This document shows positions 11,155 through 35,416 of a DNA stretch of 64,000 bases, in pieces; the stretch's first letter is position 1, and each line of letters opens with the position of its first letter. Made by a program: the position numbers and the translations under genes. The stretch comes from Solibacillus merdavium (lineage in GTDB: Bacteria; Bacillota; Bacilli; Bacillales_A; Planococcaceae). The notes below the pieces were generated by a model, which was given only the letters and a program-made list of their open reading frames with translations, ran no database searches and had not been told where the DNA came from. Location: the NCBI RefSeq assembly GCF_014836935.1, contig NZ_JACSPW010000004.1:1-64000 (forward strand), read 5' to 3'.

Positions 11155-11490
11155 TATCTCATTTCTCCCTTTTTGTAAACACTAGAATGGTTTAAGTGCC
11201 GTTATTTAATAAAACCTAACGACTAAAAGCCTAGTTTTAATTATAAGCAAAATTAAATACTTTTACCCATAAATTTCAATTTTAAAAGGTAAAATGGCAT
11301 ATAAAGAGGTAAATATAGTTATTATTAACATTCTTAATATTATTCTGGTAATTCATTATTTTAATCGGAATAATATTAAGAGATACCGTAGATGAAATAC
11401 TCAGTCCAATTATATTTTTATGGACCTGAATTATCTATAATATAAACTTTATAATTTTGCTTTTAAAGATATATAAAACGAAATGTAAGA
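11155..11490. other. Upstream region of the SLH surface protein gene
   Basis: AT-rich region without a coding frame. It holds a 13-bp perfect inverted repeat at 11333-11380 (listed separately) and a TATAAT-like hexamer nearer the gene. No convincing -35 partner was found for that hexamer. Confidence 0.5.
11333..11380. repeat. 13-bp perfect inverted repeat upstream of the SLH gene
   Basis: CTTAATATTATTC (11333-11345) and GAATAATATTAAG (11368-11380) are exact inverted copies with a 22-nt spacer, about 180 nt upstream of the SLH gene start. It could be a two-site operator or an RNA hairpin. Confidence 0.65.
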
Positions 11491-11537
11491 AATAAGTAAA
11501 AGGCATAGCCTGTTGTAAGCTATGCCTTTTACTTATT
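11491..11537 (-). terminator. Terminator of the pgi-pgcA unit
   Basis: Nineteen-bp perfect stem (11491-11509 with 11519-11537) with a 9-nt loop, just after the pgcA stop on the minus strand. It is A/T-rich at the base. Confidence 0.85.
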
Positions 11538-11556
11538 TATATTCAACATTCACCTG

Positions 11557-13251
11557 TCATACTAAAATGTTTTCTTTTAGCAGCCCTAGAATGTTATTCG
11601 CTTGCTCTTCGGTTTCTCTAACTACACCAAAATAAAATTTACATTTTGGTTCTGTCCCTGAAGGGCGAATGGCAATCCAAGAGTCATCCTCTAATAGAAA
11701 CTTTAATACATTTTCTTTCGGCAAGACGATTGGCTCAGTAGTGCCATCGTCTAATGTTGCAATTCCTGTTAAGTAGTCCTCAACACGTACTACCACTAAT
11801 CCAGCGATTTCTTGAGGCGTGTTTAAACGGTAGTTATTTAAAATAGCCTTCATCTGGTCTTGACCGTCTTTTCCTTCAAATACTTTAGATACAAGCGCTT
11901 CCTTATAGTAGCCAAAGTGCTCATATAGTTCTTCTAAAGCATCAAGCAATGTTTTTTCTTGTGTTGAATAATAAGCAGCCATTTCTGCAACTTTTAAAGC
12001 AACTTGGACCGCATCTTTATCACGAGCAAATGTCTCAATTAGATAACCGTAGCTTTCTTCATAACCAAACAAATATGTATGGGCTTTCGTCATTTCAAAC
12101 TCTGCAATTTTTTCTGCAATATACTTAAACCCTGTTAACGTATTGACTGTTGTTACTCCATAATGAGCTGCAATAGCAGTACCTAGCTCCGATGTAACAA
12201 TTGTTTTTAACATAGCACCCTTATTTGGGAGTGTGCCACTCTCTTGCTTTGTATGCAAAATATAATTTAATAAAAGTGCACCAAGCTGATTGCCTGTAAG
12301 AAGCTCATACGAAATACCTTTACGCACAGCTACCCCTAAACGATCCGCATCTGGGTCTGTTGCCAGTAATAGGTCTGCTCCTACTTGGTTACCTAGCTCG
12401 ATTGCCATAGCAAAGGCCGCGGCTTCTTCCGGGTTTGGATAGGCCACAGTAGGAAAAGCGCCATCTTGTACAGCTTGTTCCTCAACAACATGTACTTCAT
12501 TAAAACCGAATTTCTTTAAACCTTCTACTACCGGAACAAGTCCTGCTCCGTGTAAAGGAGTGTAAACAAGCTTCATATTATAATCAATATTATTGTTATT
12601 TTTTAAAGTTAATAAGTTATTCATGAACTTTTCATCAAAATCTTCCAAGATCCAATGAAACAACCCCTGCTTTTCAAGCTCTGTAACATCTGCAACTTCA
12701 ATCGCAAAAATATCACTAATTTGGTTCATATGCTCAATAATAGCATTTGCACCAGTTGGCACTAGCTGCGCACCGTCCTCACCGTATACTTTGAAGCCAT
12801 TATACTGCTTTGGATTGTGACTGGCCGTAATGACAACGCCTGCAAAAGCATTTAACTCACGCACTGTAAAAGATAACTGGGGTGTTGGACGTGCCTCTAT
12901 ATATATATAAGAAGTAATACTATGTGCACCTAATACACGTGCTGTCTCCACCGCAAATACATATGAAAAATGACGTGTATCGTAAGCAATCGCAACACCA
13001 CGCTTTTTGGCTTCTTCTCCATTTGAAGAAATATAGCGTGCCAGGCCCTCTGCTACTCGTCGGATTGTATAGATGTTCATACGGTTTGTACCTGCACCGA
13101 GGATCCCACGCATGCCACCAGTTCCAAAAGATACATATTGATAGAAGCAGTCTTCGATTGCTTTTTCATCTGTCATAAGTTGAGTTAATTCATCGGCCAA
13201 ATAAAGGGGAAGTTGTTGCTGCTGCCAATTTTTATATAGTTCTAAACTCAT
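11557..13251 (-). CDS. pgcA: Phospho-sugar mutase, alpha-phosphoglucomutase type
   Basis: Interconverts glucose 6-phosphate and glucose 1-phosphate, feeding GalU for UDP-glucose. At 564 residues it has the length of the Bacillus PgcA family. The phosphoserine loop TASHNPKQYNG lies near residue 145, the metal-binding loop DPDADRLG near 302, and the phosphate-binding RPSGTEPKCKFY near the C-terminus. The gene follows pgi with no gap: the pgi stop TAA is followed at once by GTG ATG. I prefer the ATG (AAAGGAG nine bases upstream), but the GTG at 13254 is possible. Placement beside pgi and close to galU ties it to cell-surface glycan supply as well as central metabolism. Confidence 0.92.
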   Translation of the reverse strand: MSLELYKNWQQQQLPLYLADELTQLMTDEKAIEDCFYQYVSFGTGGMRGILGAGTNRMNIYTIRRVAEGLARYISSNGEEAKKRGVAIAYDTRHFSYVFAVETARVLGAHSITSYIYIEARPTPQLSFTVRELNAFAGVVITASHNPKQYNGFKVYGEDGAQLVPTGANAIIEHMNQISDIFAIEVADVTELEKQGLFHWILEDFDEKFMNNLLTLKNNNNIDYNMKLVYTPLHGAGLVPVVEGLKKFGFNEVHVVEEQAVQDGAFPTVAYPNPEEAAAFAMAIELGNQVGADLLLATDPDADRLGVAVRKGISYELLTGNQLGALLLNYILHTKQESGTLPNKGAMLKTIVTSELGTAIAAHYGVTTVNTLTGFKYIAEKIAEFEMTKAHTYLFGYEESYGYLIETFARDKDAVQVALKVAEMAAYYSTQEKTLLDALEELYEHFGYYKEALVSKVFEGKDGQDQMKAILNNYRLNTPQEIAGLVVVRVEDYLTGIATLDDGTTEPIVLPKENVLKFLLEDDSWIAIRPSGTEPKCKFYFGVVRETEEQANNILGLLKENILV

Positions 13252-15535: not shown

Positions 15536-16099
15536 TTACTTTAGTCGAACACCTTCTGCTTTTATAACACTGAAAACAGTAAACCAAATTATCTTCAGAT
15601 CAAAAAATATATTACTATTTTTTAAGTAGATATAATCATATTCAACTTTTTTCTCATCTGTAATTAAATCTCTCCCCATAACCTGAGCATAACCTGTTAA
15701 TCCTGGTCGTATTGAGCTTATTCCAAATTCATCCCTCATTGCAATAAGATTATATTGGTTATAAAGCGCAGGTCTAGGCCCAACAATGGACATGTCACCT
15801 TTTAAAATATTAAATAACTGGGGCAACTCATCCAGACTTGTTTTCCTCAAAATATTACCCACATCTGTTATATACGCAGCTGGATTTCCTAAATCTTCAG
15901 TTGAAACATTAGGTGTATCTGTCTTCATTGTTCTAAATTTATATATATTAAATAGTTTTCCATCCTTACCAACTCGTTTTTGTGTAAACAATATTGGTCC
16001 TTTTGAATCTGCTTTTATCACTAAGGCAATAAATATCATTGGAATTATAAAAATAACTATTGCTAGTAAACTACTTATTAAATCAAAGAAACGTTTCAT
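15536..16099 (-). CDS. Initiating phosphoglycosyl transferase (PglC-like sugar transferase)
   Basis: A 187-residue monotopic phosphoglycosyl transferase, which moves a HexNAc-1-phosphate onto undecaprenyl phosphate and so starts a glycan chain at the inner membrane. A single reentrant or transmembrane helix (about 5-30) is followed by the catalytic block: KADSKGPILFTQKRVG, YKFRTMKTD, LRKTSLDELPQLFNIL and SIVGPRPAL. The DE dyad in SLDELPQ is the family catalytic pair. It is the short form, without the extra membrane domain of WbaP. Pairing with the reductase at 16108 (eight-base gap) suggests that the reductase product is the sugar transferred. Confidence 0.9.
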   Translation of the reverse strand: MKRFFDLISSLLAIVIFIIPMIFIALVIKADSKGPILFTQKRVGKDGKLFNIYKFRTMKTDTPNVSTEDLGNPAAYITDVGNILRKTSLDELPQLFNILKGDMSIVGPRPALYNQYNLIAMRDEFGISSIRPGLTGYAQVMGRDLITDEKKVEYDYIYLKNSNIFFDLKIIWFTVFSVIKAEGVRLK

Positions 16100-18988: not shown

Positions 18989-20053
18989 TTAAGTCCATTT
19001 CAACCGAATTAACCGTTTATTCTTAAGAAGTTTATATAAAAATCCCACAATTTTCTTTCTAAATATTCCTGATATTATAGAAAGAACTAAAATAGAAGCT
19101 ACTACGGGAACAAAATATATAATTATTAAGGCTTGGTTTTCAAAGTATCTTAAAGCATAAGGATAAACCATTCTATCAAAAATATAGGATGCCAAATATA
19201 TATCTAAAGTCATCCCACCAATCATAATAAATATTTTATTCAGTACAAGGTTTTTAATTTTAATATCATAAATTGCTAAGAAAAAGAAAATAGCAGTTCC
19301 CATCACCGTTAACGAACTGTAATAACCAGTTGCCTCAACAAATATACCTCCCTGTGCAAAATAAAATGTTAATATAGTTTCAATAAGAATTATTAATGCA
19401 CATAATGAAATTGCTTTATACTTTTTTATTTTTGGTTGATATTCTTTAAAATAACATCCTATAAAGTAATAAGTTAGCGGATATATATTAATCCACCAAT
19501 TCGGGAAGTATAATATTTTACTTCCTTGAAAATATAATGGGATACTATTTAATAAACCAGGTAAACCAGTTAAAACTATCAATGTGATAATTAAAGCTTT
19601 TTTTTCATTTTCTGATTTCAAATTATTGAAAATTATATTTATAAATGGGATCAACAAAAATAAACCCAAATACATATTTACATACCATCCATACCCATTT
19701 GCCTCAAAGCTAAGGATTTTATAAAGCCATTCTATTACAGATAAATCTTCTTTAAAATATGTTATCCTCATAACAATTGATAAAAGAGAGTAAAAAAGAT
19801 ATACTCCGATTACATTGATTAACCCTTTATAATAATTTTTTTTTAGTTTTTTTTGGGACATTACATACCCAGTAACCATCATAAATAAAGGAACACATAT
19901 TAAAAATAACCATCTCAAGTATGTTTGCAAAAATAATAATTCACTATTAATTAGTGGTGTAGAATAATAATAAGTATTCATAAAAAAATGAACTGATGGA
20001 ACAAAAAATACAGCTATAACTTTTATTAAATCTATTCCTACTTCTCTCTTCAT
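18989..20053 (-). CDS. Membrane acyltransferase (acyltransferase 3 family)
   Basis: A 354-residue integral membrane protein with about ten hydrophobic helices, matching the acyltransferase 3 family (OafA/WecH type), which usually transfers acetyl groups to sugars of exported glycans. The N-terminus reads GIDLIKVIAVFFVPSVHFF, the family pattern with the conserved His. The ATG at 20053 is preferred because AGAGGG lies about five bases upstream; a TTG at 20068 lacks such a site. It overlaps the start region of the following GT4 gene, which suggests coupling. O-acetylation of the S-layer glycan or wall polymer is inferred. Confidence 0.83.
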   Translation of the reverse strand: MKREVGIDLIKVIAVFFVPSVHFFMNTYYYSTPLINSELLFLQTYLRWLFLICVPLFMMVTGYVMSQKKLKKNYYKGLINVIGVYLFYSLLSIVMRITYFKEDLSVIEWLYKILSFEANGYGWYVNMYLGLFLLIPFINIIFNNLKSENEKKALIITLIVLTGLPGLLNSIPLYFQGSKILYFPNWWINIYPLTYYFIGCYFKEYQPKIKKYKAISLCALIILIETILTFYFAQGGIFVEATGYYSSLTVMGTAIFFFLAIYDIKIKNLVLNKIFIMIGGMTLDIYLASYIFDRMVYPYALRYFENQALIIIYFVPVVASILVLSIISGIFRKKIVGFLYKLLKNKRLIRLKWT

Positions 20054-20202
20054 AGAACCCTCTATCAAATCGGTTAAATATAACCATTTATTTTTATTTG
20101 AGTAAATTTACAAAGCAATGATTACTGAGGTTTCTATCGCTCATTTACAGTATCTGTTTCTGTTTTGTAAAGAAATTATTCATAGCCGACAAGGACTTAA
20201 AA

Positions 20203-20281: not shown

Positions 20282-20698
20282 CTAAGAATAGATATTTTTG
20301 TCAGTTACTTTAAAAACAAAGTATTTTTGTCCAAAGTAATTTAATATCACAAAAATAATCATTCCAAATATCATAGAAATGTTATCAATAAATTTAGAAG
20401 ATAAACTATTTAATATAAATTCTAATATATTTTTCGCTACGGTATATGCTATTAAATAACATACAATAATATTTATTATAAATTTGATTACCTCTGTAAA
20501 ATTTCTATTTTTACTTTTAGATGTATAATATTTATTTAAAATATAACTTATTATACTTCCAATAAAATAATTTAAAAACGTTGATATCCAGTAACCCATT
20601 CCGAATAAATTATAAGCTACAAACATTATTGATGTTCCAATGACGGTATTTATAATCCCTACTATTACAAATTTATTGAAAGTTTTTGAATTACTCAT
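20282..20698 (-). CDS. GtrA-like membrane protein (putative lipid-linked glucose flippase)
   Basis: A 138-residue protein with four predicted transmembrane helices, matching the GtrA/DPMS family. In O-antigen glucosylation GtrA is thought to flip undecaprenyl-phosphoglucose outward. The helix pattern FVIVGIINTVIGTSIMF, FLNYFIGSIISYILNK and ILNYFGQKYFVF is typical. I place the start at the ATG that overlaps the GtrB-like stop (ATGAGTAA, eight bases shared), implying translational coupling; an in-frame ATG at 20722 is an alternative. Together with the two upstream genes it makes a complete gtrA-gtrB-gtrC-like set. Confidence 0.82.
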   Translation of the reverse strand: MSNSKTFNKFVIVGIINTVIGTSIMFVAYNLFGMGYWISTFLNYFIGSIISYILNKYYTSKSKNRNFTEVIKFIINIIVCYLIAYTVAKNILEFILNSLSSKFIDNISMIFGMIIFVILNYFGQKYFVFKVTDKNIYS

Positions 20699-21647
20699 AT
20701 ACTTTAACTTTTGTTTTTCCATGGATTTTTTTTGAAATAATATAACTTGGCCTAGATTTTATTTCTTCAAAAATTTTATTAATATAAATCCCTAAAATTC
20801 CTATACTTAATGTAATAGTACCTCCAACCAATAAAAGGAGTAAAATTATAGTAGTGAATCCTTCTAATGAATTCCCTGTAAAATAACTTATTAATGAATA
20901 TCCTCCTAAAAGAGTTGCAAAGATTAAATAAATAACACCAATCAATGATACTAAATGTAGGGGCGCAGAAGTAAATGAGGTAATATTAGATATAGCATAT
21001 TTAATTAATGATCCGAAAGACCATTTACTTTCCCCATTAACTCTTTCTTGTACTTCAAATTCAACTGTAGCTTGTTTAAAGCCTACCCAGTAAGATAATG
21101 CACGGAAAAATCGATTTTTTTCAGGCAACTGATTTAGCTCATTTATCACTTTTCTATCAAGTAGTTTGAAATCAGATGATTTATCCATTTTAAACTTTGT
21201 CACTTTTGAAATTGATGAGTAAAAGATTTTAGAAAATAACTTGTAAACAAAGGATTCTTTTCCCCTAGAAACTTTCACACCCTCAATTACTTCGTATCCA
21301 ACTTCCCACAATCTATACATACTAATAATCATGTCGGGTGGATGCTGCAAATCACAATCTAAAACAACTGCACAATCACCATTACACATTTTCAAACCAG
21401 CCTCAATAGCAGCTTCTTTACCAAAATTCCTTGAAAAATTAATTGCCAGAACTTTATCATCTCGGGATATTTCTTCAATTCTATCCCAAGTGTTATCTTT
21501 AGAACCATCATTAATATAAACTAATTCATAATCAATAGAATTATTATACATCAATTCACTTATTACATTATATGACAAATTTATATTCTCTTCTTCATTA
21601 TAAGCTGGTAGAATAATGCTTAATAATTTCATCCTTGTCTCACTCAA
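20691..21647 (-). CDS. GtrB-like polyprenyl-phosphate glycosyltransferase
   Basis: A 318-residue membrane GT2 enzyme of the GtrB/DPM1-like type, transferring a sugar (glucose in the model family) from UDP-sugar to undecaprenyl phosphate. The catalytic domain opens with IILPAYNEEENI, and the metal site is VLDCDLQHPPDMI (about residues 93-105). GVKVSRGKESFVYKLFSKIF follows, and two C-terminal membrane helices (about 230-300) complete the family architecture. It overlaps the upstream Glucos_trans_II gene by eight bases and the downstream gtrA-like gene. The donor is probably UDP-glucose from GalU, by inference from family and context. Confidence 0.88.
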   Translation of the reverse strand: MSETRMKLLSIILPAYNEEENINLSYNVISELMYNNSIDYELVYINDGSKDNTWDRIEEISRDDKVLAINFSRNFGKEAAIEAGLKMCNGDCAVVLDCDLQHPPDMIISMYRLWEVGYEVIEGVKVSRGKESFVYKLFSKIFYSSISKVTKFKMDKSSDFKLLDRKVINELNQLPEKNRFFRALSYWVGFKQATVEFEVQERVNGESKWSFGSLIKYAISNITSFTSAPLHLVSLIGVIYLIFATLLGGYSLISYFTGNSLEGFTTIILLLLLVGGTITLSIGILGIYINKIFEEIKSRPSYIISKKIHGKTKVKVYE

Positions 21648-23139
21648 ATCTTATTATTATAGTATTATCGATTACTTTGATCGAATCACTCAATGGCCAT
21701 TGTGACATTTCATTAATTTCTTCTGCATTTATCTCAACAAATTCCGACTGAATATCCATTGTTTTCAATTCATGTCCTAAAAAATTATTTAAATACAATG
21801 TAGTTGTATACTCATTAAATACAATATTTCCAATCCCTACATTGTACGGGACTTTAGTATTGTAGCTTTCGACTAAATTTATATGTGTAGTGGGATTACC
21901 AATAACTAATAAAGAGTCAACTAAAGGTGAATTCCTTTGAATATTTTCAATCTCATAAGACACCTTAGTCATTAAAGAATTTGTATAATTATTAATAAGT
22001 GAAAGTTTTTCATAATAAATATTTGTAATTACAACTAAATTAAATGCAATTAAAAATAAGATAATTATTGCCACTTTATTAATTACTTTGTAAATAATTT
22101 CACTTTTAAAAATATTTGTTTCCAAAATAAAAATTCCTATCAAATACATTAAAGGGATATTTTGAAGCATTAAAACGTGATAAAAAACACTTGGAGAAAC
22201 AAAATATATTAAGTATAAATAAAAAGGACACAAGCCAATTAACATTATAATTAAAGTGAAATTCTTAAATTTAATTTTTGAAGTTAACACAAATATTAAT
22301 AATGTAATTAATACTAATAATATATAAAGTAAATTTAACTTTTCGAATAAGTTAGTAAAGCTATAATTATTAAATATAAATATATTAAATGCATTAACTG
22401 CTTTCTGTGCTGCTAAATAAATAGTTTCAAAATTTATAACCCCTGCATCATTTATTCCACCATATTCAGTCAATCCAACTTTATTTTGGTAGATTTTAAA
22501 ATGAATAATATATAGTAACAATCCTCCAACTATAGTTACAATATATTTAATAAAAGACTTAAAGTCTAAATTATTATTATTCATTAATCTTTGGATCAAT
22601 ATGACTACAACCATAGTTACAGCTAAAGTTAAGTTTGCTTGATAAGTACCCAAGGCTACATATAATAAAAATACAGCTCCAATATTATACCAAATGTTTT
22701 TAGTAGATATATATATAGCCAATAAAGTTAAAAAGAAAGATATATAATAAGCGTCAGCTGTAAATGCATATGAAAATATCCCGGAAACAGAAGGAAATGC
22801 AGCATATATAACAATAAACATTATAATATTTTTTTTATTAACAATGTTAAATATTTCTATAATTAATACAAGGCCTAAACTTAAAAATATGCATGAGATT
22901 AATAAATTTAAATAATGCAAGTCGAAATAACTACTTAAACTGCCTAAATATTTTAATGTAAATCTCCCAGAGGAAGATAAATCCATATCGCCATAAAAAT
23001 GCCAGAGACTGTCATGATTTTTTAAATTATTCACTAACATAAATAAATGAATTATAATGGTTGAACTTAATGAAAATATAAAAGTAAATTTCATTCTTTC
23101 AGTTATAGTTATATTTTTTTTATCCAATTTCTTCTTCAT
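21640..23139 (-). CDS. Multi-spanning membrane glucosyltransferase (Glucos_trans_II / GtrC-like)
   Basis: A 499-residue protein with about eleven hydrophobic helices. The N-terminal SLWHFYGDMDLSSSGRF segment followed by membrane helices resembles the Glucos_trans_II family, GT-C proteins that act as GtrC in phage serotype-converting cassettes, moving glucose from undecaprenyl phosphate to a polysaccharide outside the membrane. The Asp-rich first loop is consistent with a GT-C acidic motif. The about 120 C-terminal residues are extracytoplasmic. It is translationally coupled to gtrB-like and gtrA-like genes, which strongly supports the reading. Acceptor, probably the S-layer or wall glycan, is inferred. 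Confidence 0.78.
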   Translation of the reverse strand: MKKKLDKKNITITERMKFTFIFSLSSTIIIHLFMLVNNLKNHDSLWHFYGDMDLSSSGRFTLKYLGSLSSYFDLHYLNLLISCIFLSLGLVLIIEIFNIVNKKNIIMFIVIYAAFPSVSGIFSYAFTADAYYISFFLTLLAIYISTKNIWYNIGAVFLLYVALGTYQANLTLAVTMVVVILIQRLMNNNNLDFKSFIKYIVTIVGGLLLYIIHFKIYQNKVGLTEYGGINDAGVINFETIYLAAQKAVNAFNIFIFNNYSFTNLFEKLNLLYILLVLITLLIFVLTSKIKFKNFTLIIMLIGLCPFYLYLIYFVSPSVFYHVLMLQNIPLMYLIGIFILETNIFKSEIIYKVINKVAIIILFLIAFNLVVITNIYYEKLSLINNYTNSLMTKVSYEIENIQRNSPLVDSLLVIGNPTTHINLVESYNTKVPYNVGIGNIVFNEYTTTLYLNNFLGHELKTMDIQSEFVEINAEEINEMSQWPLSDSIKVIDNTIIIRFE

Positions 23140-23213: not shown

Positions 23214-24236
23214 CTAACCATACATAGCGTCCCAATCTTTTAGAAAAGCACTATCAGTTAGTTTACTTTTATACTTACCTAATCTTTTTTTACAAATATC
23301 AAAATTTTCTGTTATATATTTTATTTTATTAGTGGCTTCATTGATAGAGTTTAATTCATATAAAAAGGTTGAATCATTGTCAACTAATGCGTTATGGATA
23401 TTAGAAGCTAATATTGGAATATCATTTACAATTGCTTCAGCAATAGAGAGGCCAAAGCTTTCACCTTTTGAAGAAGATATAACAATTCCATTATTATTCT
23501 TTATAATATTAAATAATTGTGGCACTTTCTCAAAAGCAATGGGTGGTAAATAAATAACCCGGTTAAGTAAACACTTATCACTTATAATTTTAAATAAATC
23601 AACTTCTGTAGTAATAGGCCCTGCAATTATTAATATAAATTTATCACCAACCTTTTTTTGCAAATTTACAAAGATTTCAATGACTTCTTCTACATTTTTT
23701 AATTTATCAATTCTGCCTATATACGCAATTGGAATTTTAGGGAAAACATTAGTACTATTTACGTTTTTTTCAACAAGAAGTGCTGGAACAAAATTTCTTA
23801 ATACTATAGTCTTTTTTTGAAGTTGTTCTGGAATTTCATTGATAATATCTTCTTTAAATTTGTCAGAAGGAACAATAATATTTTTAATATTAAAGGGTAA
23901 GTCACTTAGATATTGTCTATTCTCCGTATAGGCTGTATGACATTCAAAAACTATTTTTTCATAATTTTTTGTCATTTCGAAAATCTCAGGGGTATCAATA
24001 ACGTGAATAAAATCATAATGATTGGGGTTAAAAGTTTCAACTATTTGTAAATATCCGCCTAAATCTTTCCCCTTAATATATTGATTTAAAAGTATTTTCC
24101 CTCCCGAATCATGGAGGAAAAATACATCTTGAGATACGTTATAATTAGCTTCTTTAAAAGCTAAAGCTCGATTGAGTAAAACTCTTTCAACGCCTCCCAT
24201 AGTTGCCCATTTATATACATAAAGGATTTTTTTCAT
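23214..24236 (-). CDS. Family 4 glycosyltransferase
   Basis: A 340-residue GT-B fold glycosyltransferase. The N-terminus MKKILYVYKWATMGGVERVL carries the glycine-rich acceptor loop seen in GT4 enzymes; IPIAYIGRIDKLKN begins the donor domain (about 185), and SSSKGESFGLSIAEAI (about 255-270) is the ExxxxxxxE-type donor-binding motif. It lies 19 bases after the methyltransferase-GT fusion. Probably a chain-elongating enzyme of the same glycan; the sugar is unknown. Confidence 0.86.
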   Translation of the reverse strand: MKKILYVYKWATMGGVERVLLNRALAFKEANYNVSQDVFFLHDSGGKILLNQYIKGKDLGGYLQIVETFNPNHYDFIHVIDTPEIFEMTKNYEKIVFECHTAYTENRQYLSDLPFNIKNIIVPSDKFKEDIINEIPEQLQKKTIVLRNFVPALLVEKNVNSTNVFPKIPIAYIGRIDKLKNVEEVIEIFVNLQKKVGDKFILIIAGPITTEVDLFKIISDKCLLNRVIYLPPIAFEKVPQLFNIIKNNNGIVISSSKGESFGLSIAEAIVNDIPILASNIHNALVDNDSTFLYELNSINEATNKIKYITENFDICKKRLGKYKSKLTDSAFLKDWDAMYG

Positions 24237-24255: not shown

Positions 24256-26595
24256 TCAGTCAAATAACTCTTGCAATATATTATTATTATTGATTTCATC
24301 CATTATAAAATTAAATCTGCTATCCCAAGTACTATCTAATAGGAATTCATTTACATTAGAATACTGAATTTTACCCTCTAATATTTCATTATACAATTTT
24401 TCTATTGTATCATAAAATTGTTTTGTACTTTCACTATGTGTTACTAATGGATAGTTATTTAAATGTGGGATACCTGTTGAAATAGTAGGAAGACCAAAAT
24501 ATAAATATTCATAGACTTTGATTGGATCTACAGCTTCAGATAGCTTTGAATGTTTAAAAGGGATAATACCTATGTGCCACTTTTCAACGACTTCATGTAA
24601 TTTACCAGGATGAATTTTCCCATAATACTTAATATTATTGTATTTCATTATTTTCTCTAGTGTCTTATCATCTGCACCATAGCCTATTAAATGTATAAAG
24701 ATATGGTCCTTTTTAGCTATTTCAAAAATTAGCTCCCAATCAAACCACGCTGCGGTCATATGTCCAAAGTAACCAATATGGATTTTTTTATCATCTGCAG
24801 ACTGTTTTAAAGAAATATCTTTATATTTTGAAACTTCCTCAGCATATCCATTTCCTACTACTTTTATATCAGTTCTTAAATAATTGAACTTACTTCTTAA
24901 TGGCTCAGAAACTGCGAAAATCGCATCAGAATTCAAAATAATAGCTTCCTCAACCTCTTTTTTGTACCAAGGAGATTCACCCTGATCATAAAATCCTTCC
25001 CATTCATCCATAATGTCATAAATTATATGAAAAGCATTTTCCCTAAATTTAATAATTAGATCATTAAATTCTTTTGCTGGAAAAGTAATAATAAATTTTT
25101 TATTTTTGATACCATTTATTAAACTGAAATCTGTTTCTAAAAAATCAAATAATGGTACTTGGTAAATATTATTCAAAAAAGACTGGTAGTTTTTCTCTAA
25201 TTTTTCCCCTTTTTCCCACTGCCATGCAATATATAATACTGCAAAGCCTTTCTTAGCCAAATATTTAGCAAAATTTATCGTTCTTTGATTATATAATTCA
25301 TCGAATTCAAAAGCTGAAGGAATAATAACTAGCCCCTGGATTTTCCCTACCTCATAATCATTTAATAAATTTGAATAAAGATTTATTAATTGTGAAGAAT
25401 TAATAGAAGCTACCTGTTCTTTTGGAGAATTTAGATAAGTAGCAGATCTACTAACTGCCTCCTTTAAACCCTTTGTCTTTAAAATATAGTAGAATTTTTT
25501 TGTATAACCCTTTAATTTTTTCCTTACTCCCATAAAACGATAATATTTATTTAAAATTTTCCATGCCTTCGTATTTTGAAAACTAGTTAGCTGATAATTT
25601 AAATCATAATTAACATTGTTATAATAAGTAATTTGTCTTTCATATTCTTTAATTTTTTCTTTGAATTCATTCTTATCTTGAAGAAGATTAGATATAACTT
25701 TGTCTTTTTGGTTATAGGAATCTGATAGATTTTTTATAATGGTATTATTATTTTCTAATGTAGATTTGAACCAATTAATGGAATTTTCTTTCTCATCTAT
25801 TTGGTCTTTATGCCACCTTAACTCATTGTTAATTTCTTCAAGCTTTTTATGAAAGCTTGTTTCATTATCAACTAGTTTATTTTTCATAGTTTCTAAAGCT
25901 TCTTTTTGGCTAAAATATTCTAACTCATAAAATTCTCTTCTAGCATTAAAGTTTCCTAAATCAATTTTAGTAAAATCAATATTTACTTTTTTAGAATAAA
26001 TAATTATAGCTTGTTTACCATACCAATGAGTTCCTTCTATTAATTTACAATCAATTTCTTTAAAATATGATAATTGAAAATTATCTATTTCCATTGGGAA
26101 AGATTTATATTCAAATGTATACATATGTTCTTTAATTCTATCGTCTTCTAAAAAAGGCACCATTAAAATCAAATGTTGTTTTGTATTTTGAAGCATTTTT
26201 GGGATAATTTCAAATGGGTTAGAAAAATGCTCTAATACGTTAGAACAAATTATCACATCATAATTCTGTGGTAGATTTTTTATATCCCCCTGTGCATAAT
26301 CTACATTGGGATAATATTCTTTGGCTTTGCTAATTGCTTCATTTGAAAAATCTATTCCCACAACATCTAAGTTATTAAATCTATTGGCTAATAAATTTGT
26401 TCCATCACCTTCCGCACAACCGGCATCACAAATCGACCATTTTTCTTCCTCAAGTTGTTGAATTATTTCAAAAGGTAAATTTTCAAGTAATAAATTCAGG
26501 AAAAATTCAGTTTGCTCTCTACCAAGATAACTTTCCCAGTTAGTTTGGAAACGATTATCCCAATAATCTTTACTGTTTACTTTATATTCACTCAT
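24256..26595 (-). CDS. Methyltransferase-coiled coil-glycosyltransferase fusion protein
   Basis: A 779-residue three-part protein. Residues about 20-210 form a class I SAM-dependent methyltransferase: CDAGCAEGDGTNLLA is the SAM loop and IICSNVLEHFSNP the post-II motif. Residues about 225-345 are a charged heptad-like stretch (Glu/Lys/Asn rich) expected to form a long coiled coil. Residues about 395-779 form a GT-B glycosyltransferase with YFGHMTAAWFDWELI and VDPIKVYEYLYFGLPTIST. The layout recalls WsaE (methyl-rhamnosyltransferase of Geobacillus S-layer glycans) and WbdD (a methyltransferase with coiled-coil length ruler). Next door is an ABC exporter whose ATPase has a Wzt-like C-terminus. 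Chain capping and length control are inferred. Confidence 0.85.
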   Translation of the reverse strand: MSEYKVNSKDYWDNRFQTNWESYLGREQTEFFLNLLLENLPFEIIQQLEEEKWSICDAGCAEGDGTNLLANRFNNLDVVGIDFSNEAISKAKEYYPNVDYAQGDIKNLPQNYDVIICSNVLEHFSNPFEIIPKMLQNTKQHLILMVPFLEDDRIKEHMYTFEYKSFPMEIDNFQLSYFKEIDCKLIEGTHWYGKQAIIIYSKKVNIDFTKIDLGNFNARREFYELEYFSQKEALETMKNKLVDNETSFHKKLEEINNELRWHKDQIDEKENSINWFKSTLENNNTIIKNLSDSYNQKDKVISNLLQDKNEFKEKIKEYERQITYYNNVNYDLNYQLTSFQNTKAWKILNKYYRFMGVRKKLKGYTKKFYYILKTKGLKEAVSRSATYLNSPKEQVASINSSQLINLYSNLLNDYEVGKIQGLVIIPSAFEFDELYNQRTINFAKYLAKKGFAVLYIAWQWEKGEKLEKNYQSFLNNIYQVPLFDFLETDFSLINGIKNKKFIITFPAKEFNDLIIKFRENAFHIIYDIMDEWEGFYDQGESPWYKKEVEEAIILNSDAIFAVSEPLRSKFNYLRTDIKVVGNGYAEEVSKYKDISLKQSADDKKIHIGYFGHMTAAWFDWELIFEIAKKDHIFIHLIGYGADDKTLEKIMKYNNIKYYGKIHPGKLHEVVEKWHIGIIPFKHSKLSEAVDPIKVYEYLYFGLPTISTGIPHLNNYPLVTHSESTKQFYDTIEKLYNEILEGKIQYSNVNEFLLDSTWDSRFNFIMDEINNNNILQELFD

Positions 26596-26599
26596 TTTA

Positions 26600-27847
26600 T
26601 TACTCCTTTAAAAAACTAATAGATTGACTTACTGGAGGATGGAAATATCCAAATATTTTTTTGTCACTTATAATTCTAAAATATTTTGCCCCTTCAATAT
26701 AATCATAATACTCAGGTTGCATATTACTTCTATTCTCAATAGCTACTACTAAAATATATTCATCGTCTTTTAGATAATTTTCAAATTCAAAATTCACTTC
26801 GATTACATTTGATTTTACCTTTGATAAATTGTGGTTGTGATCATAAGTTGTACTTACAATTAAATCCGTGCCTACTTTATTTTTTATTGAAAATGCAACA
26901 CTACAATATTTCATATCAATATTTTTAGGTATTTCTGAAATTACTTTTATGCAAACTTTTTCTCCAAATTTAATAAGCGAAGTTTTCTCTTTTTTTGAAT
27001 TAAATATTTCTACGTATTTAATTATTCCCTGTTGTGATCCCCAACGATTAATGGCTTCAAATTCTGTATTAAAATCTTCTGATCGATGATTTATAATCTC
27101 TCTTTCATTAACTTCATCGTCATTCATATATTTCATATATTCTGCTGTCACTTCTAAGGTTTCACCAAACATTCTCATTTCACCTTGGTGAATCCAAAGG
27201 GCTTTATCACAAAAAGTACGGATACTTGAAACATCATGTCCTACAAATAGTATTGTCGCACCACTTTCCTTTAATTCATTCATTCTATTAAAGCATTTTG
27301 CTTGAAATTTCATATCTCCTACAGCTAAAGCTTCATCAATAATTAAAATTTCAGGATCAACATTAATCGCAACTGCAAAAGCCAATCTTGCAAACATTCC
27401 TGAAGAGTAGGTCTTTACAGGTTGATATACATATTCTCCGATATCAGCAAAATCTAATATGCCTTGAATACGTTCATCCATCTGGCTTTTAGAATATCCC
27501 ATTATTGTACCTTGTAAATAAATATTCTCTATCCCTGTATACTCCATATTAAACCCAGCGCCTAATTCTAATAATGCTGCAACTTTCCCTGCCACTTGCA
27601 CATTACCAGAAGAGGCCGATAGAACACCAGTAAGTATTTTCAATAAAGTCGATTTACCAGATCCATTCTTCCCTACAATCCCTAATGTCTCTCCCTTTTT
27701 CACTTCAAATGAAATATTTTTCAAAGCAAAAAACTCCGAATGATACAATTTCCTTGATATACTTAATGATTCTTTTAAACGGTCTTGTGGATTATTGTAT
27801 AATTTATAAACTTTTGATAATTCTTGAACAACAATTGAATTTTTCAT
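26600..27847 (-). CDS. Polysaccharide ABC exporter ATPase with Wzt-like C-terminal domain
   Basis: A 415-residue ATP-binding subunit of an ABC-2 glycan exporter. Walker A is GIVGKNGSGKST (about 57-68), the signature is YSSGMFARLAFA, and Walker B is ILIIDEAL, as in TagH/Wzt. The domain ends near residue 245; a further about 170-residue beta-rich region (HRSEDFNTEFEAINRWG onward) corresponds to the C-terminal domain by which Wzt proteins recognise a modified non-reducing end. Simple TagH lacks this type of domain. It sits between the permease (12-base gap) and the methyltransferase fusion, so it probably exports a capped glycan. Confidence 0.9.
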   Translation of the reverse strand: MKNSIVVQELSKVYKLYNNPQDRLKESLSISRKLYHSEFFALKNISFEVKKGETLGIVGKNGSGKSTLLKILTGVLSASSGNVQVAGKVAALLELGAGFNMEYTGIENIYLQGTIMGYSKSQMDERIQGILDFADIGEYVYQPVKTYSSGMFARLAFAVAINVDPEILIIDEALAVGDMKFQAKCFNRMNELKESGATILFVGHDVSSIRTFCDKALWIHQGEMRMFGETLEVTAEYMKYMNDDEVNEREIINHRSEDFNTEFEAINRWGSQQGIIKYVEIFNSKKEKTSLIKFGEKVCIKVISEIPKNIDMKYCSVAFSIKNKVGTDLIVSTTYDHNHNLSKVKSNVIEVNFEFENYLKDDEYILVVAIENRSNMQPEYYDYIEGAKYFRIISDKKIFGYFHPPVSQSISFLKE

Positions 27848-27859
27848 TTTAATCTCCTC

Positions 27860-28648
27860 TTATAGCACATCTGAAAAATGAGGTCGTAATTTTTTAAAGA
27901 TCCATACACCAAATATTAAAACAGTTAATGTAAATAACCAAAAATAGATAGTCAAAAGAGGATCTTCCCAAAACCACTTTTGATAAATTAAAGTATTACG
28001 GTAACCCTCTACTATATAATAGATGGGATTTAATTTAAATAAAAACTGCAGATTAAGAGGCACAATTTGAAATGACCAAAAAATAGGAGTTAACCAAAAG
28101 CCAAATTGTAATAAAACAGATACAATTTGTCCCACATCTTTTGAAAAAATAGCTAGCGAAGATGTGATCAATGACACACCGTATACCAAAATTACTGTTG
28201 CAAATAAAAAATAAAAAATTTGAATATGGTATATACTGAATCCAAACCCATAAATGGCAAATAAAACTATTACTATCAATAAAAATATAATATGGATGAA
28301 TAATGCTGATATAGTTTTTATAATTGGTAACAAACTAACTCTAAAAACTACTTTTTTAACTAAATAACTGTTATCTAATATGGAGTTCGTCCCTATTGCT
28401 ATAGCTTCTGAAATAAAAAACCAAGGTATAATACCTGCAATTAACCATAAAATAAATGGAACATCATCTATTGGCATAGATCTAAAACCAATCTGAAATA
28501 CAAACCAATAAATTAATATCATAATTATTGGATTCATAAATGCCCAAAAAATCCCCAAATAAGAGCCTAAATATTTAACTTTAAAATCATTTTTTGCAAG
28601 TTGCATAATAATATTTCTATCATTATATAAACTTTTTAAGTAACTCAT
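27860..28648 (-). CDS. Polysaccharide ABC exporter permease (Wzm/TagG type)
   Basis: A 262-residue ABC-2 family permease with six predicted transmembrane helices, the partner of the ATPase at 26600. The N-terminal amphipathic segment NIIMQLAKNDFKVKYLGSYLG leads into helix 1, and FGFWLTPIFWS and LNPIYYIVEGYRN are typical of the Wzm/TagG family. It starts directly after the dehydratase stop. Together the pair would move an undecaprenyl-linked glycan across the membrane, which means the chain is assembled in the cytoplasm. No Wzx flippase is present. Confidence 0.92.
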   Translation of the reverse strand: MSYLKSLYNDRNIIMQLAKNDFKVKYLGSYLGIFWAFMNPIIMILIYWFVFQIGFRSMPIDDVPFILWLIAGIIPWFFISEAIAIGTNSILDNSYLVKKVVFRVSLLPIIKTISALFIHIIFLLIVIVLFAIYGFGFSIYHIQIFYFLFATVILVYGVSLITSSLAIFSKDVGQIVSVLLQFGFWLTPIFWSFQIVPLNLQFLFKLNPIYYIVEGYRNTLIYQKWFWEDPLLTIYFWLFTLTVLIFGVWIFKKLRPHFSDVL

Positions 28649-30501: not shown

Positions 30502-32058
30502 TTATTCTTTGTCTGGATTTAATTTATTTCCATGTGAAAACACTATACCTAAAAAAATAAATACTACAGCTGTTATGGCTGGGATTGAATCATTAAATAG
30601 TGCCTGTACGGAATAAGCAAGTACTGCTACTCCTAATATTAAAACAGCACTATTTATATTATTTTTTTGTACTAATGCTCTTAAAACTAACGTCACATTC
30701 CATATAATAATAGATATTAAGGCTATAAAACCAAATATACCCGTCCCGTATAATATTGCAATATAAATGTTATGTGCTTTATCAACAATTGTATTTTCAT
30801 CCAGCATACCTGCTCTACTTTCTAGTTGGTAATGTGGAAAATTGTATACTAGAGAATCATTACCATATCCAGTTAACGGGCGCTCTTTTACCATTTCTAA
30901 AGTTTCATTCCAAATATAACCACGACCTGTCCCGAAAGCTAAATATCTTTCTGGTAATACAGGTAACTCAAGTGCTTTCTCACTAGCATATACTTTGTTA
31001 TCATAACTAAATCCATAACCAAGTGAGGATGCCTCTTCTTTTGAATATGGGTTTATATCAACAAAGAAACCGAATGATTCTTCCCATACCCTATCATTTT
31101 CCTTTGAAAGAATATGAAAAATGGGAACAATAATTATTAAAGAAATTACAAGGGCTGTTATACTTTTCTGCTTTTCACTATTTTTAATACTTAATATTAG
31201 TATTAACGGCAAAATAACAATAATAGTTAAAAATCCACTAGTAGAAATGGACATTAATAAAATAGCCAATGAAGCTGCCGCAGTGATAGAACCAATAATC
31301 ACTTCAACCCATTTTTTAGATAACACTGCCCATGCTAGATACATCACCGACATAATAGCGAACATACCACTCATATAATTCCACTGATTTAACGTTCCTA
31401 CTAATAATGAAGATTCTGAAATATTTGCTCCTTCAGGTAGCAAGATTGATACTAAGTTTTGAAGCCATTTTGCTTGTAATAAATCATTACCATAAAAATT
31501 CATTGCAATAATATATAAGTTTATAAATACAAATGGAATCATTGCATACATTATAGAAGGCACAGCATTTTTAGGATATTTAATATTTATCGCTACAAAT
31601 AATAATGCAATATAACATAACCAACTGATCGCTCCATCTGAACGGTTATATTGACCATTTAAAGCAATCGTAATATTTGGAGAAGCAATTGTAGAAATAA
31701 TTATGGCTACAGTAAACACCGCTAAAATATAATTTAAGGCTGTTTTTCGTATTATACCTTCCATAAAAAAAATTTTAAGCATTAGCATCCCAAATGTAAT
31801 TATAGTTATACTTACAATAAAAATTAATTTATAGTGAGTAAATAGATCTCCCTTTATTCCAGATGTAAGAACATCAATATTAGAAATTAATGGACTCACT
31901 ACTTCTTTAACATTTGCCATTACAATTAGAGGCATAACTGCGATTAAAAATAAGAATAAACGGAAAATCCATTTATCAATATTTGCACGTGACTGAGTAT
32001 TTTCTATTTCATCATTAATTACTGTTGATTTATTGAGCTCTTCGTAAAATGAAGCCAT
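30502..32058 (-). CDS. O-antigen ligase family membrane protein (WzyC domain)
   Basis: A 518-residue protein with about twelve transmembrane helices and a large extracytoplasmic loop containing TGYGNDSLVYNFP and DKAHNIYIAILYGTG, whose His is the likely catalytic residue of the WzyC/O-antigen ligase family. These enzymes transfer or polymerise undecaprenyl-linked glycans outside the membrane. It is 16 bases after the TPR gene and two genes from the S-layer gene. Because the neighbouring exporter implies cytoplasmic chain synthesis, transfer to protein (as proposed for WsfB in Geobacillus) is a better fit than Wzy polymerisation, but this is inference. Confidence 0.86.
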   Translation of the reverse strand: MASFYEELNKSTVINDEIENTQSRANIDKWIFRLFLFLIAVMPLIVMANVKEVVSPLISNIDVLTSGIKGDLFTHYKLIFIVSITIITFGMLMLKIFFMEGIIRKTALNYILAVFTVAIIISTIASPNITIALNGQYNRSDGAISWLCYIALLFVAINIKYPKNAVPSIMYAMIPFVFINLYIIAMNFYGNDLLQAKWLQNLVSILLPEGANISESSLLVGTLNQWNYMSGMFAIMSVMYLAWAVLSKKWVEVIIGSITAAASLAILLMSISTSGFLTIIVILPLILILSIKNSEKQKSITALVISLIIIVPIFHILSKENDRVWEESFGFFVDINPYSKEEASSLGYGFSYDNKVYASEKALELPVLPERYLAFGTGRGYIWNETLEMVKERPLTGYGNDSLVYNFPHYQLESRAGMLDENTIVDKAHNIYIAILYGTGIFGFIALISIIIWNVTLVLRALVQKNNINSAVLILGVAVLAYSVQALFNDSIPAITAVVFIFLGIVFSHGNKLNPDKE

Positions 32059-32073
32059 CTAACCTTACCTTCC

Positions 32074-32571
32074 TTATTGCATATTCTCAATTTGAGTTAA
32101 TAATTCTGTGACATGTTCTTGGTAAGTTGGATACTCTTGTGGCGCCCAACCCCATTCACGACATTTTTCTAAGACTATCTTAGCATCCTCATAGCGTTCA
32201 GCAGAAATTAAAACTTCCCCAAATTGGATCATAAACATCGGATCTTCTACTTTATGTGGGTTTATATCTAATGCCTTTTGAAATAATATTGTGGATCTGG
32301 TAAAATCACCCAGATTCGCTGAGGTTACAGCTCCAATATAATTTACCACTTCGGAATTTGGCTGGCGCAATAATAATTCGTTTATTAAATTCTCTGCATC
32401 AGAATATTTGCCATCATTATATAATTGACTTGCTTGTTGATAAAGAACATCATCCATCAAAAAATCCTCGTCTTGTTTACTTGCTAGTACTTTCGCAGTT
32501 ATAAAACCGACTATTATAAAAGCTACAATGCCAAGTAAAATATATTTCCTCTTAGATTCAGTAAGCTGCAT
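32074..32571 (-). CDS. Membrane-anchored TPR protein
   Basis: A 165-residue protein with one N-terminal transmembrane helix (about 11-30; YILLGIVAFIIVGFITAKVL) and an extracytoplasmic part with two to three tetratricopeptide-like helical pairs (LYQQASQLYNDGKYSDAENLI, DFTRSTILFQKALDINP and ERYEDAKIVLEKCREWGW). It is the first gene of the glycan unit and lies just upstream of the O-antigen-ligase-family gene. Some ligase-family proteins of Gram-positive bacteria carry their own TPR domain, so this may be a split partner that presents the acceptor. Function is not established. Confidence 0.75.
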   Translation of the reverse strand: MQLTESKRKYILLGIVAFIIVGFITAKVLASKQDEDFLMDDVLYQQASQLYNDGKYSDAENLINELLLRQPNSEVVNYIGAVTSANLGDFTRSTILFQKALDINPHKVEDPMFMIQFGEVLISAERYEDAKIVLEKCREWGWAPQEYPTYQEHVTELLTQIENMQ

Positions 32572-32860: not shown

Positions 32861-35416
32861 TTATTGTGCTCTGAATACGTTTCTGCCGTTAGCATTTGTT
32901 TCATATACAAAGCTGTACACTTTACCTTTGTAAGAAATAGATACTGTTTCTCCAACAGATACAGGGTCAGCACCAAAGCCTACATATAGAACTTTGTTGT
33001 TGGCAGCGTCAGTAGTGATTGTACCACGTGTACCACCTGTTTTAGTTGCTTCAATACTTGTAGCTGCTACTGCTTCAGTAAATGTTAATGTAATTGACGC
33101 AGCATCTCTAGAAGTAGGATTAGTTTCAGTAGTTTGTACTACATCTGAAATCGTGAAGTAAGAAGTACTTGCACCTGATAAGAATGTTGCTGTTTTAGTA
33201 ACAGATGTTAAACCAGATAAACCAGAGTTTGTTGGTGTTGCAGTAACACGAACATCTGAACCGTTAGATTTTAAGAAGATAGAAATATCCGTTTGTCCAG
33301 CAACTACAGTACGGTTTAAGATTGTTTTTGAAGTATATGCAGGGATTACAACAGCTACTCCATTTTCTAAAACAGCGTTACCAGCTGCATCTACTAATTC
33401 AACTGCTTGTGCACCTGCACGTACTGTAAATTGTACTGGTGTATCTGAGCCGTATGAGCGAGCTTTACCATTTTGATCAGATAATTGGTAAGAAAATTCT
33501 GCAACTGTGTCGCTACCGAATGTTGTAACTTCCTTATCATCCGCATTTGTAACTACTAATTCACTTCTGTAATCAGCAGTTCTTGTAGTACGGAAGTAAG
33601 TGATTTCTCCTGTAACTTGTAAATCTTTCTTATCTAATTTGCCAGGTTCAGAACCAGTACCTGTACCATTGTCGATAAATGCAATTGGTGTTACAAATGC
33701 ATCAGCATCAGGGTGACTAACTGTAAACTTAGCTACACCATCTTTATCTGTAACAATACGGAATGTAACAGAATCTGTTGTAGTTGAAACTACTGGCTCA
33801 CCATCAGCATCAAATACTTTTACATCACCGCGTGTAGTAGTAGTTTCATTATTAAATGTTACTAAAAGCTCTGCATTAGCTAATGCTTTACCTTCTCTAT
33901 TTTTCAGTGTTGCAACATAGTCACGTCCACCAGTTTGTGTATCATCTTTGTAAACTGAAGCAGTTTGGTTACCTTCAGCTTTAATTGATAAATCAAATAC
34001 TGATTCTTTAGCAAATGTTGCAGTTGAACCTACAGCTTGTAAAGCAGTAGCATCGTATTTAGGAGTTGTGCCTGGGTTGTTTACGAAAGCAATTGGCGTT
34101 ACTGCTGCATCATCACCTGTTAATACTAGGTTAGCTTTACCTGTAGAATCTAAACGAATAACACCTACAGCATATCCGCCAGTTGTATATTCATAAGCAA
34201 ATTTAGCAGTAGCAGTATCACCAGTAGTGTTTAAACCTAAGAACTCTACACCACGAACAGCTTTTTCAGGAGCTACATTTAAGTTTTCTTTGAAAGCTAC
34301 GTAAACTAATTCATTATTTTCACCAGTAATTTGGTAAACTTTTTGTTCACCATTAGCTAAAGTTGTTCCTTCTGTAACATCTTTAATTGCTAAAGTTGTA
34401 TCCCAGTATACTTTTGCAGCTGCTTTTAATGCTGGTTTACCCGTTGCATATGCATTTACGTTATCTGTATTACCTTGTGAACGAGTATAAGTATAAGTTG
34501 CTACACCGTTTGCGTCAGTTTTTACAGTTGCTGTAATTTGAGGAACGATAGTTGTATCGTTAGCCAATTTTTCATGGAAGATATCAAACTTCACAGGAAT
34601 GTTAGTTGTAGATTCACCTTCAGCTACAGTTACTTTAGCTTTTAAAGTTACTGTTTCACCATACTTACCTTGGATTGAAGTTTGTTCAAATGCAATTGCA
34701 GTTGGTAATACTGATGAAGCTTCTTGATCTTCTTGACCAGCAGCTGTGTAATCAGCAGTGATTGTTTTGTGTAAGAATGACGCGAATTGACCGCGAGTTG
34801 TGTTGCCTTTTGGGTTGAACGCTGGTGCAGCTGGGTTTGTAATGTCATAGAAGTCTAATACAGAAATCGCTGTGCGAGCTTCTGCTTTAGCTTGAGTTAA
34901 GTCAGTTACATCACCTTTGAAATCTTGAGTAGCTACGTACTCTTCTAAGCTGATATTGTATACAGTGTTAACTGTACGTACTAAAGTGATAGCCATGTTT
35001 TCGCGAGTGATTGGGTCACCAGCTAAAAGGTTACCGTTAGAACCTACGAATACGCCAGCTTCTTTAACTAAAGAAGCGTATTTTAATAACTCTTCGTTAG
35101 TTTTTGTAGTTAAGTCAGCGAATGCTGGACGAGTTTTGTAGTCAGCAGAAGCTTCATAACCTTTAGTTTCTAAAAACTTACCTAATAATTTAACTACGTC
35201 AGAACGAGTTAATTCTTTGTTAGGCTTGAATGTGCCATCTTGGTAACCAGAGATGATACCATCACTTACTAATGCAGTGATCGCTTCCTCGTGTGTGTTA
35301 CCTGAAATGTCCGATAATGATGCAGCAGATGCAACTGGTACGATTGCAGATGCTACTAATGTAGCTGTCGCAGCTGTTGCTACGAATTTTTTGTATTTCT
35401 TTGGTTGGTTAGCCAT
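32861..35416 (-). CDS. S-layer protein with three N-terminal SLH domains
   Basis: An 851-residue exported protein that should form the surface crystalline layer. The signal peptide (about 1-31, ending ASA) is followed by three SLH domains (about 33-85, 95-150 and 165-225) with GYQDGTFKPNKELTRSD, ITRENMA and TTRGQFA signatures. The rest is Ala/Thr/Val-rich Ig-like beta structure with no cysteine seen, as expected for S-layer arrays (for example segments starting at ITATVKTDANGVATYTYT). GAGGAGG before the ATG, a near-consensus promoter and a strong terminator imply very high expression. It resembles the SLH S-layer proteins of Lysinibacillus and Solibacillus. Glycosylation is likely given the adjoining cluster but is not shown by sequence. 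Confidence 0.92.
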   Translation of the reverse strand: MANQPKKYKKFVATAATATLVASAIVPVASAASLSDISGNTHEEAITALVSDGIISGYQDGTFKPNKELTRSDVVKLLGKFLETKGYEASADYKTRPAFADLTTKTNEELLKYASLVKEAGVFVGSNGNLLAGDPITRENMAITLVRTVNTVYNISLEEYVATQDFKGDVTDLTQAKAEARTAISVLDFYDITNPAAPAFNPKGNTTRGQFASFLHKTITADYTAAGQEDQEASSVLPTAIAFEQTSIQGKYGETVTLKAKVTVAEGESTTNIPVKFDIFHEKLANDTTIVPQITATVKTDANGVATYTYTRSQGNTDNVNAYATGKPALKAAAKVYWDTTLAIKDVTEGTTLANGEQKVYQITGENNELVYVAFKENLNVAPEKAVRGVEFLGLNTTGDTATAKFAYEYTTGGYAVGVIRLDSTGKANLVLTGDDAAVTPIAFVNNPGTTPKYDATALQAVGSTATFAKESVFDLSIKAEGNQTASVYKDDTQTGGRDYVATLKNREGKALANAELLVTFNNETTTTRGDVKVFDADGEPVVSTTTDSVTFRIVTDKDGVAKFTVSHPDADAFVTPIAFIDNGTGTGSEPGKLDKKDLQVTGEITYFRTTRTADYRSELVVTNADDKEVTTFGSDTVAEFSYQLSDQNGKARSYGSDTPVQFTVRAGAQAVELVDAAGNAVLENGVAVVIPAYTSKTILNRTVVAGQTDISIFLKSNGSDVRVTATPTNSGLSGLTSVTKTATFLSGASTSYFTISDVVQTTETNPTSRDAASITLTFTEAVAATSIEATKTGGTRGTITTDAANNKVLYVGFGADPVSVGETVSISYKGKVYSFVYETNANGRNVFRAQ

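Follow-up and report, generated by a model that had tools for sequence, protein, structure and literature searches.

The 779-residue protein encoded in the window (the whole 64-kb stretch of DNA that was analyzed) is probably the chain terminator, the ruler and one elongating enzyme of a lipid-linked glycan that is exported by an ABC transporter and most probably destined for the S-layer. This reading is based on computed features, namely the domain order, a coiled coil, the carbohydrate-binding module (CBM) of the exporter, the co-occurrence of these parts in related loci, the variation of coil length and a cassette swap. From these we infer a mechanism that comprises membrane anchoring by a hinge, length measurement, an O-methyl cap, export gating and transfer to the S-layer protein. 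The basic hinge would bind the cytoplasmic face of the membrane, the GT-B domain would be kept at the growing undecaprenyl-linked chain, and the predicted coiled coil would hold the methyltransferase at a distance of about 17-20 nm. A chain would have to be long enough to reach the methyltransferase in order to be O-methylated at its non-reducing end, and its growth would then stop. The C-terminal module of Wzt would bind the methylated end, Wzm/Wzt would then export the chain, and the Wzy_C ligase would move the exported chain onto protein. The exporter, its CBM and the terminator would make up one cassette, which could be replaced by another while the polymerase behind it stays unchanged.

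The fusion protein, its exporter and the surrounding locus

Table 1. Features of the fusion protein, the exporter and the locus (positions in the window).
Feature	Positions	Strand	Basis or remark
779-aa fusion, methyltransferase - coiled coil - basic hinge - GT-B glycosyltransferase	24256..26595	(-)	candidate chain terminator/ruler/elongase
Methyltransferase domain, aa 1-205, SAM motif CDAGCAEGDGT	25981..26595	(-)	Pfam PF13847 E 3.6e-16; ChlM fold Z 18.3
Coiled coil, aa 222-340	25576..25932	(-)	COILS-type score and AlphaFold2 helices 222-290, 297-340
Hinge, aa 341-390, NTKAWK motif and basic amphipathic helices	25426..25575	(-)	candidate membrane-surface anchor
GT-B glycosyltransferase domain, aa 391-779	24259..25425	(-)	TuaH-like GT match; BshA/MshA/PimA-type folds Z ~20
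Wzt, ABC ATPase with C-terminal cap-binding module (predicted)	26600..27847	(-)	ABC_tran and Wzt_C
Wzt_C carbohydrate-binding module (CBM), aa 262-404	26636..27064	(-)	PF14524; Aquifex CBM match
Wzm, ABC-2 permease	27860..28648	(-)	PF01061 E 2.1e-17
GT4 glycosyltransferase, gene next to fusion	23214..24236	(-)	conserved: L. telephonicus 61%, Cohnella faecalis 46%
Wzy_C / O-antigen-ligase family, candidate glycan-to-protein ligase (WsaB-like)	30502..32058	(-)	PF04932 E 2.5e-19
Membrane TPR protein beside ligase (WsaA-like)	32074..32571	(-)	recurs beside the ligase in sister loci
SLH-domain S-layer protein, probable glycan acceptor (inferred)	32861..35416	(-)	PF00395 E 2.5e-15
Short monotopic phosphoglycosyltransferase, candidate initiating enzyme (WsaP-like)	15536..16099	(-)	TIGR03025 positions 257-443, E 2.4e-69

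The three minus-strand ORFs of note, which encode the fusion protein, Wzt and Wzm, are separated by intergenic gaps of 4-12 nt, and a ribosome-binding-like AAGGAG precedes the ATG of the fusion gene. The earlier note had proposed that one protein of 779 residues combines a methyltransferase, a coil and a GT-B glycosyltransferase, and this was borne out by the ORF list, Pfam, a COILS-type score and AlphaFold2. HMM searches matched the methyltransferase, the GT, ABC_tran, Wzt_C and the ABC-2 permease. Within the fusion protein, Pfam Methyltransf_31 matches aa 53-146 (E 3.6e-16) and a profile search matches a TuaH-like GT at aa 473-735 (E 1.1e-16). The coil of about 120 residues, named beforehand as a point on which the proposal could fail, is predicted by both methods. 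In the COILS-type score, for which the scoring matrix was entered by hand, P rises to as much as 0.98 within aa 247-274 and 292-328, and one of 15 other proteins of the window that served as controls also has a coil. The AlphaFold2 model was built from a four-sequence alignment (mean pLDDT 70.6; about 55-75 in the coil region) and places the two coil helices between a Rossmann domain, which extends to aa 205, and a GT-B domain starting at about aa 400. Judged from the sequences, the coil is not due to chance, because it is found at the same place in the orthologs of Lysinibacillus telephonicus and Cohnella and because coils are rare among background ORFs of sister loci (6/336, see below). It spans about 17 nm if it is helical throughout. 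The hinge, for which the AlphaFold confidence is below 50, has a net charge of +13 in the 46 residues from KAW, and its hydrophobic moment of 0.53 is in the top 4% of the protein.

AlphaFold2 revealed no kinase domain in the stretch from the end of the methyltransferase (about aa 205) to the start of the coil (aa 222). A second glycosyltransferase domain was not found by the profile search or AlphaFold2. The fold matches among those listed are GT-B and methyltransferase folds only, and the missing WbdD is not evidence. The fused GT may be one of several polymerases, together with the product of the conserved next gene; at least two enzymes probably elongate the chain, the fused GT being one and the downstream GT4 the other.

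The extra Wzt-like domain that had been proposed at the C-terminus of the ATPase, a second point on which the proposal could have failed, is a genuine Wzt CBM: Pfam Wzt_C matches aa 267-403 with an E value of 1.1e-20, and aa 7-397 of the ATPase match the full-length Wzt of Aquifex (E 2e-78). A five-sequence profile of the CBM alone retrieved the Aquifex CBM (E about 5e-8), while phmmer with the CBM of the window as single query yielded chance matches only. The best solved relative is the methyl-cap-binding CBM of Aquifex Wzt, in which Trp362 stacks on the 3-O-methyl cap and the exchange W362L abolishes binding (PMC9445017). The CBM of the window has a Tyr at this position. The aligned residue is Tyr or Phe in all six CBMs of the subfamily of the window, Trp or Tyr in four other methyltransferase-type CBMs, Arg in 4/4 kinase-like CBMs and Lys in 3/3 GT4-type CBMs; an exception is the methyltransferase-type locus G132, where the position falls into a gapped stretch. 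This contrast between terminator types was spotted post hoc on a remote alignment to the Aquifex CBM, and has a p value of 0.0003 when counted by sequence and of 0.14, not significant, when counted by clade.

The locus also contains genes for a CapD-type dehydratase, a GtrII/GtrB/GtrA trio, an acyltransferase and more GTs. The trio (20282-23139; GtrA, GtrB-like and GtrII-like) would be a likely extracytoplasmic side-chain glucosylation system for the exported glycan, and the acyltransferase gene is located near it (18989-20068). A second SLH-domain protein (7717-11154; 1145 aa, three SLH repeats) is encoded near the glycosylation locus. According to the ORF list, no Wzz-like ORF is present beside the ligase in the 64-kb window. 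By analogy, the polymer of the cassette would be an S-layer glycan. In 7 of the 42 sister loci, for which about 2 kb upstream were covered, a homolog of an S-layer protein was detected beside the ligase.

Coil-length variation, sister loci and exchange of the cassette

Full-length orthologs of the fusion protein are present in L. telephonicus (53% identity) and Cohnella faecalis (44%). A relative in Hungatella has the order methyltransferase-coil-GT-B-GT2, and in L. piscis and G466 the methyltransferase-coil part is a separate gene in front of a GT-B/GT2 protein. A coil is present in all six of these subfamily proteins (including that of the window), each of which is encoded beside a Wzt with a matching CBM. 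It is found in none of the six subfamily proteins that have no Wzt in the covered stretch (L009, two in L100, two in L101, L103; by genome G233 beside flagellin, G504 twice, G520 twice, G592), four of which are still fused to a GT. The association has a Fisher p value of 0.002, or 0.015 if L. piscis is counted as coil-less, as its coil score is weak (seen only at a scoring width of 21, weak at a width of 28). Strong CBM matches (E<1e-40) among 399 genomes of the class were obtained in exactly those genomes that have both the methyltransferase and Wzt. In the L009 protein (10201-11943), which is encoded beside flagellin, the methyltransferase is joined directly to another enzyme-like domain. 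A coil and a Wzt are both lacking there, and the protein probably acts in flagellin glycan modification.

The distance between the end of the methyltransferase and the hinge is 145, 138 and 102 residues in the three fused orthologs, and the flanks align almost without gaps. The methyltransferases (205/205/205 aa) are 52-62% identical and the GTs (389/389/394 aa) 46-57%, versus 22-24% for the coils (135/128/91 aa). A spacer would be expected to diverge in this way, and the pattern would also fit a ruler. Heptad arithmetic (145-138 = 7) was set aside as evidence, because a single pair proves nothing.

The ligase was found in 43 of 261 genomes of the family (a search at the order level covers the same 261 genomes), and 42 sister loci were compared with the window. 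The ligase and its TPR partner recur in all 42. A long Wzt is present in 14 sister loci and the window and absent in 28, and 25 of these 28 contain a Wzz-sized coiled-coil protein, one of which was checked with Pfam and is a Wzz (E 2.6e-13). The exporter/terminator cassette therefore appears to alternate with Wzz. Of the 15 long-Wzt loci, 13 have a neighboring protein with a predicted coil, whereas such a coil is predicted for 6 of 336 background ORFs (Fisher p 2e-17, with rows that are not phylogenetically independent). In the two short-Wzt loci (G160, G217) no coil-bearing protein of the terminator kind was found.

Five different coil-terminator types adjoin a CBM-bearing Wzt. They include methyltransferases of several subfamilies, kinase-like proteins with a separate methyltransferase, and GT4-coil-GT-GT proteins. 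The reverse order, i.e., a basic membrane-type helix, a coil and a C-terminal methyltransferase, is found beside a CBM-bearing Wzt in L061 (8115-9308) and L082 (10674-11864). Kinase-like domains with an IDYEW motif are carried on coils in L066 (9533-12757), L079 (7061-8506), L080 (7298-8746) and L059 (11657-12775). Each follows a methyltransferase of about 300 aa that is a protein of its own, the CBM has Arg at the stacking position, and methyl-phosphate caps are possible for these loci. For the kinase-like domain of the G067, G040, G031 and G068 terminators (conserved N-D-N-F-D-N and IDYEW) a profile search yielded no significant PDB relative, and thus "kinase" is a motif-based label only. 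Methyltransferase-coil-GT2-GT4 proteins of about 1090 aa with a clear coil are encoded close to rml-like genes in L063 (6281-9532) and L083 (6189-9470) and are possibly WsaE-type enzymes.

Among 18 long Wzt proteins, CBM identity averages 50% within a terminator type and 19.5% between types. When ATPase identity is held at 55-62%, CBM identity is 30-43% within a type and at most 23% between types. The CBM type thus seems to track the terminator type more sharply than the ATPase or the permease does, in a comparison with rows that are not phylogenetically independent and in which the matching may partly reflect linkage, since adjacent genes travel together. The Lysinibacillus-type loci of L. 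piscis and G068 have in common a polymerase block of 4986 nt that is 85% identical (L007 5167-10143 versus L059 6803-11779). It begins inside the coil, of which it includes the last ~41 codons, and contains three GT genes. Upstream of the block the terminators are unrelated, Wzm is 27% and the CBM 26% identical (different type), and the G068 CBM groups with its counterparts in other kinase-like loci (56-81%). The TPR protein and the ligase are homologous again. The simplest reading is a recombination through the coil in which exporter, reader and terminator were replaced together.

Alternative explanations

It is unlikely that the protein is a WsaE-like enzyme without a ruler, which would cap any end that it meets, so that length would be kinetic (a balance of elongation, capping and export) and the coil a linker or oligomerizer. 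Such a reading is encouraged by the free divergence of the coil and by WsaE itself, which methylates independently of chain length in vitro; length control of S-layer glycans has been stated to be open, and an additional factor may be needed (PMC2943079). However, the same methyltransferase is found without a coil outside ABC-export loci, four times fused to a GT, the coil is seen again in terminators of five different types beside a CBM-bearing Wzt, and a ruler function has precedents in Klebsiella and E. coli (PMC11231755). The target of the methyltransferase could also be an internal residue rather than the chain end. If internal residues of every repeat were modified, the exporter would recognize the polymer in general and not a cap, which we regard as very improbable: the long Wzt carries a CBM of matching type, an aromatic residue is conserved at the methyl-stacking position of Aquifex, and the short-Wzt loci G160 and G217 lack such a protein. 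These points outweigh, in our view, that generic SAM methyltransferases decorate many surface glycans and that the flagellin-linked relative (L009) exemplifies a use outside ABC export.

Another alternative is about where the polymer goes and leaves room for a cap and a ruler: the cassette might build another surface polymer, e.g., a cell-wall polysaccharide or a capsule. This has a real but rather low probability. The glycosylation of the nearby S-layer protein is putative, the Wzy_C family is broad, and Cohnella and Hungatella carry the cassette with no SLH gene recognized in the stretch covered. On the other hand, the genes and their order (SLH protein - TPR - ligase - Wzm - Wzt - methyltransferase/GT) resemble those of slg clusters (PMC2943079), and ligase marker and TPR partner recur together in the sister loci.

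Known systems and implications

The slg locus of Geobacillus stearothermophilus NRS 2004/3a, with WsaE and Wzm/Wzt, is an S-layer glycan locus like that of the window (PMC2943079, PMC3898925). In both cases an N-terminal methyltransferase is fused to a GT, wzm-wzt lie directly upstream, the partner GT is a separate gene, and a terminal O-methyl cap is proposed as stop and export signal. However, WsaE is a methyltransferase-GT-GT fusion (PMC2943079) and has two GT domains versus one in the window fusion (compared by published description), which is therefore not classed as a WsaE ortholog. PMC2943079 and PMC3898925 describe neither a coil of WsaE nor a part that it plays in setting length, in contrast to the predicted coil of the window fusion. 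The proteins of G238 and G127 (methyltransferase-coil-GT2-GT4, ~1090 aa) look nearer to the WsaE layout.

A terminator, a coil and GTs in one polypeptide have been described for Klebsiella O12 and O7 (PMC11231755). O7 ORF6 and O12 WbbB, like the window protein, have the terminator at the distal end of the coil and polymerizing GT modules at the other end, and the described terminated systems share a Wzt with CBM. The O7 terminator is a methyltransferase plus kinase with GT2 modules and that of O12 is a GT (PMC11231755), whereas the window has only a methyltransferase, one GT-B domain and a Gram-positive S-layer-type locus. WbdD of E. coli O9a/O8 shares the methyltransferase terminator, the coiled coil, the membrane-proximal C-terminal end and the Wzt CBM as cap reader, but it recruits a separate polymerase, and the O9a type has a kinase domain, which the O8 type and the window protein lack (PMC3482155). 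The split versions of L. piscis and G466 have a WbdD-like layout. Aquifex aeolicus WzmWzt, which reads a 3-O-methyl cap (PMC9445017), is the closest solved relative of the Wzt of the window including the CBM. The CBM of the window is nevertheless a remote relative, with Trp362 replaced by Tyr/Phe in its subfamily and further pocket residues that differ, and thus another sugar or position is likely. For C. difficile SLCT-11 the consulted passages of PMC6254364 describe a capped, ABC-exported Gram-positive S-layer glycan as well, with a phosphate-type cap, and do not report a coil terminator.

A coiled-coil terminator with a Wzt CBM, even fused to GTs, is an established principle in the O antigens of Klebsiella and E. 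coli. Together with the S-layer precedent of WsaE, this makes the window protein a variant of a known scheme. The reading as cap, ruler and exporter in the earlier note has gained good comparative support (co-occurrence, coil-length variation, CBM/terminator matching and the swap), but it is less novel than stated in view of Klebsiella O12/O7 (PMC11231755) and WsaE (PMC2943079). The combination of a methyltransferase-only terminator, a coil and a single GT-B seems to be new. Beyond the earlier note, the sister loci suggest that the cassette is exchangeable through the coil and alternates with Wzz.

A coil inside a capping enzyme, with natural spacings of 145/138/102 residues on aligned flanks, makes the length question directly testable, and the swap at the common polymerase of L. 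piscis and G068 offers a natural way to ask whether the writer and the reader of a cap have to match. The parts are modular and might be used for the engineering of glycans of defined length. As a tentative generalization, it is quite possible that S-layer loci of Planococcaceae control length either via Wzz or via a coiled-coil terminator. In the second case the terminator, which may be of methyl, glycosyl or kinase-like type and have its domains in either order, would belong with exporter and cap reader to an exchangeable cassette. Recombination through the coil would join this cassette to a polymerase that stays constant, and the pocket residue of the CBM, whether aromatic, Arg or Lys, would follow the cap. 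If this is true, cap chemistry and length could be changed while the glycan backbone stays the same.
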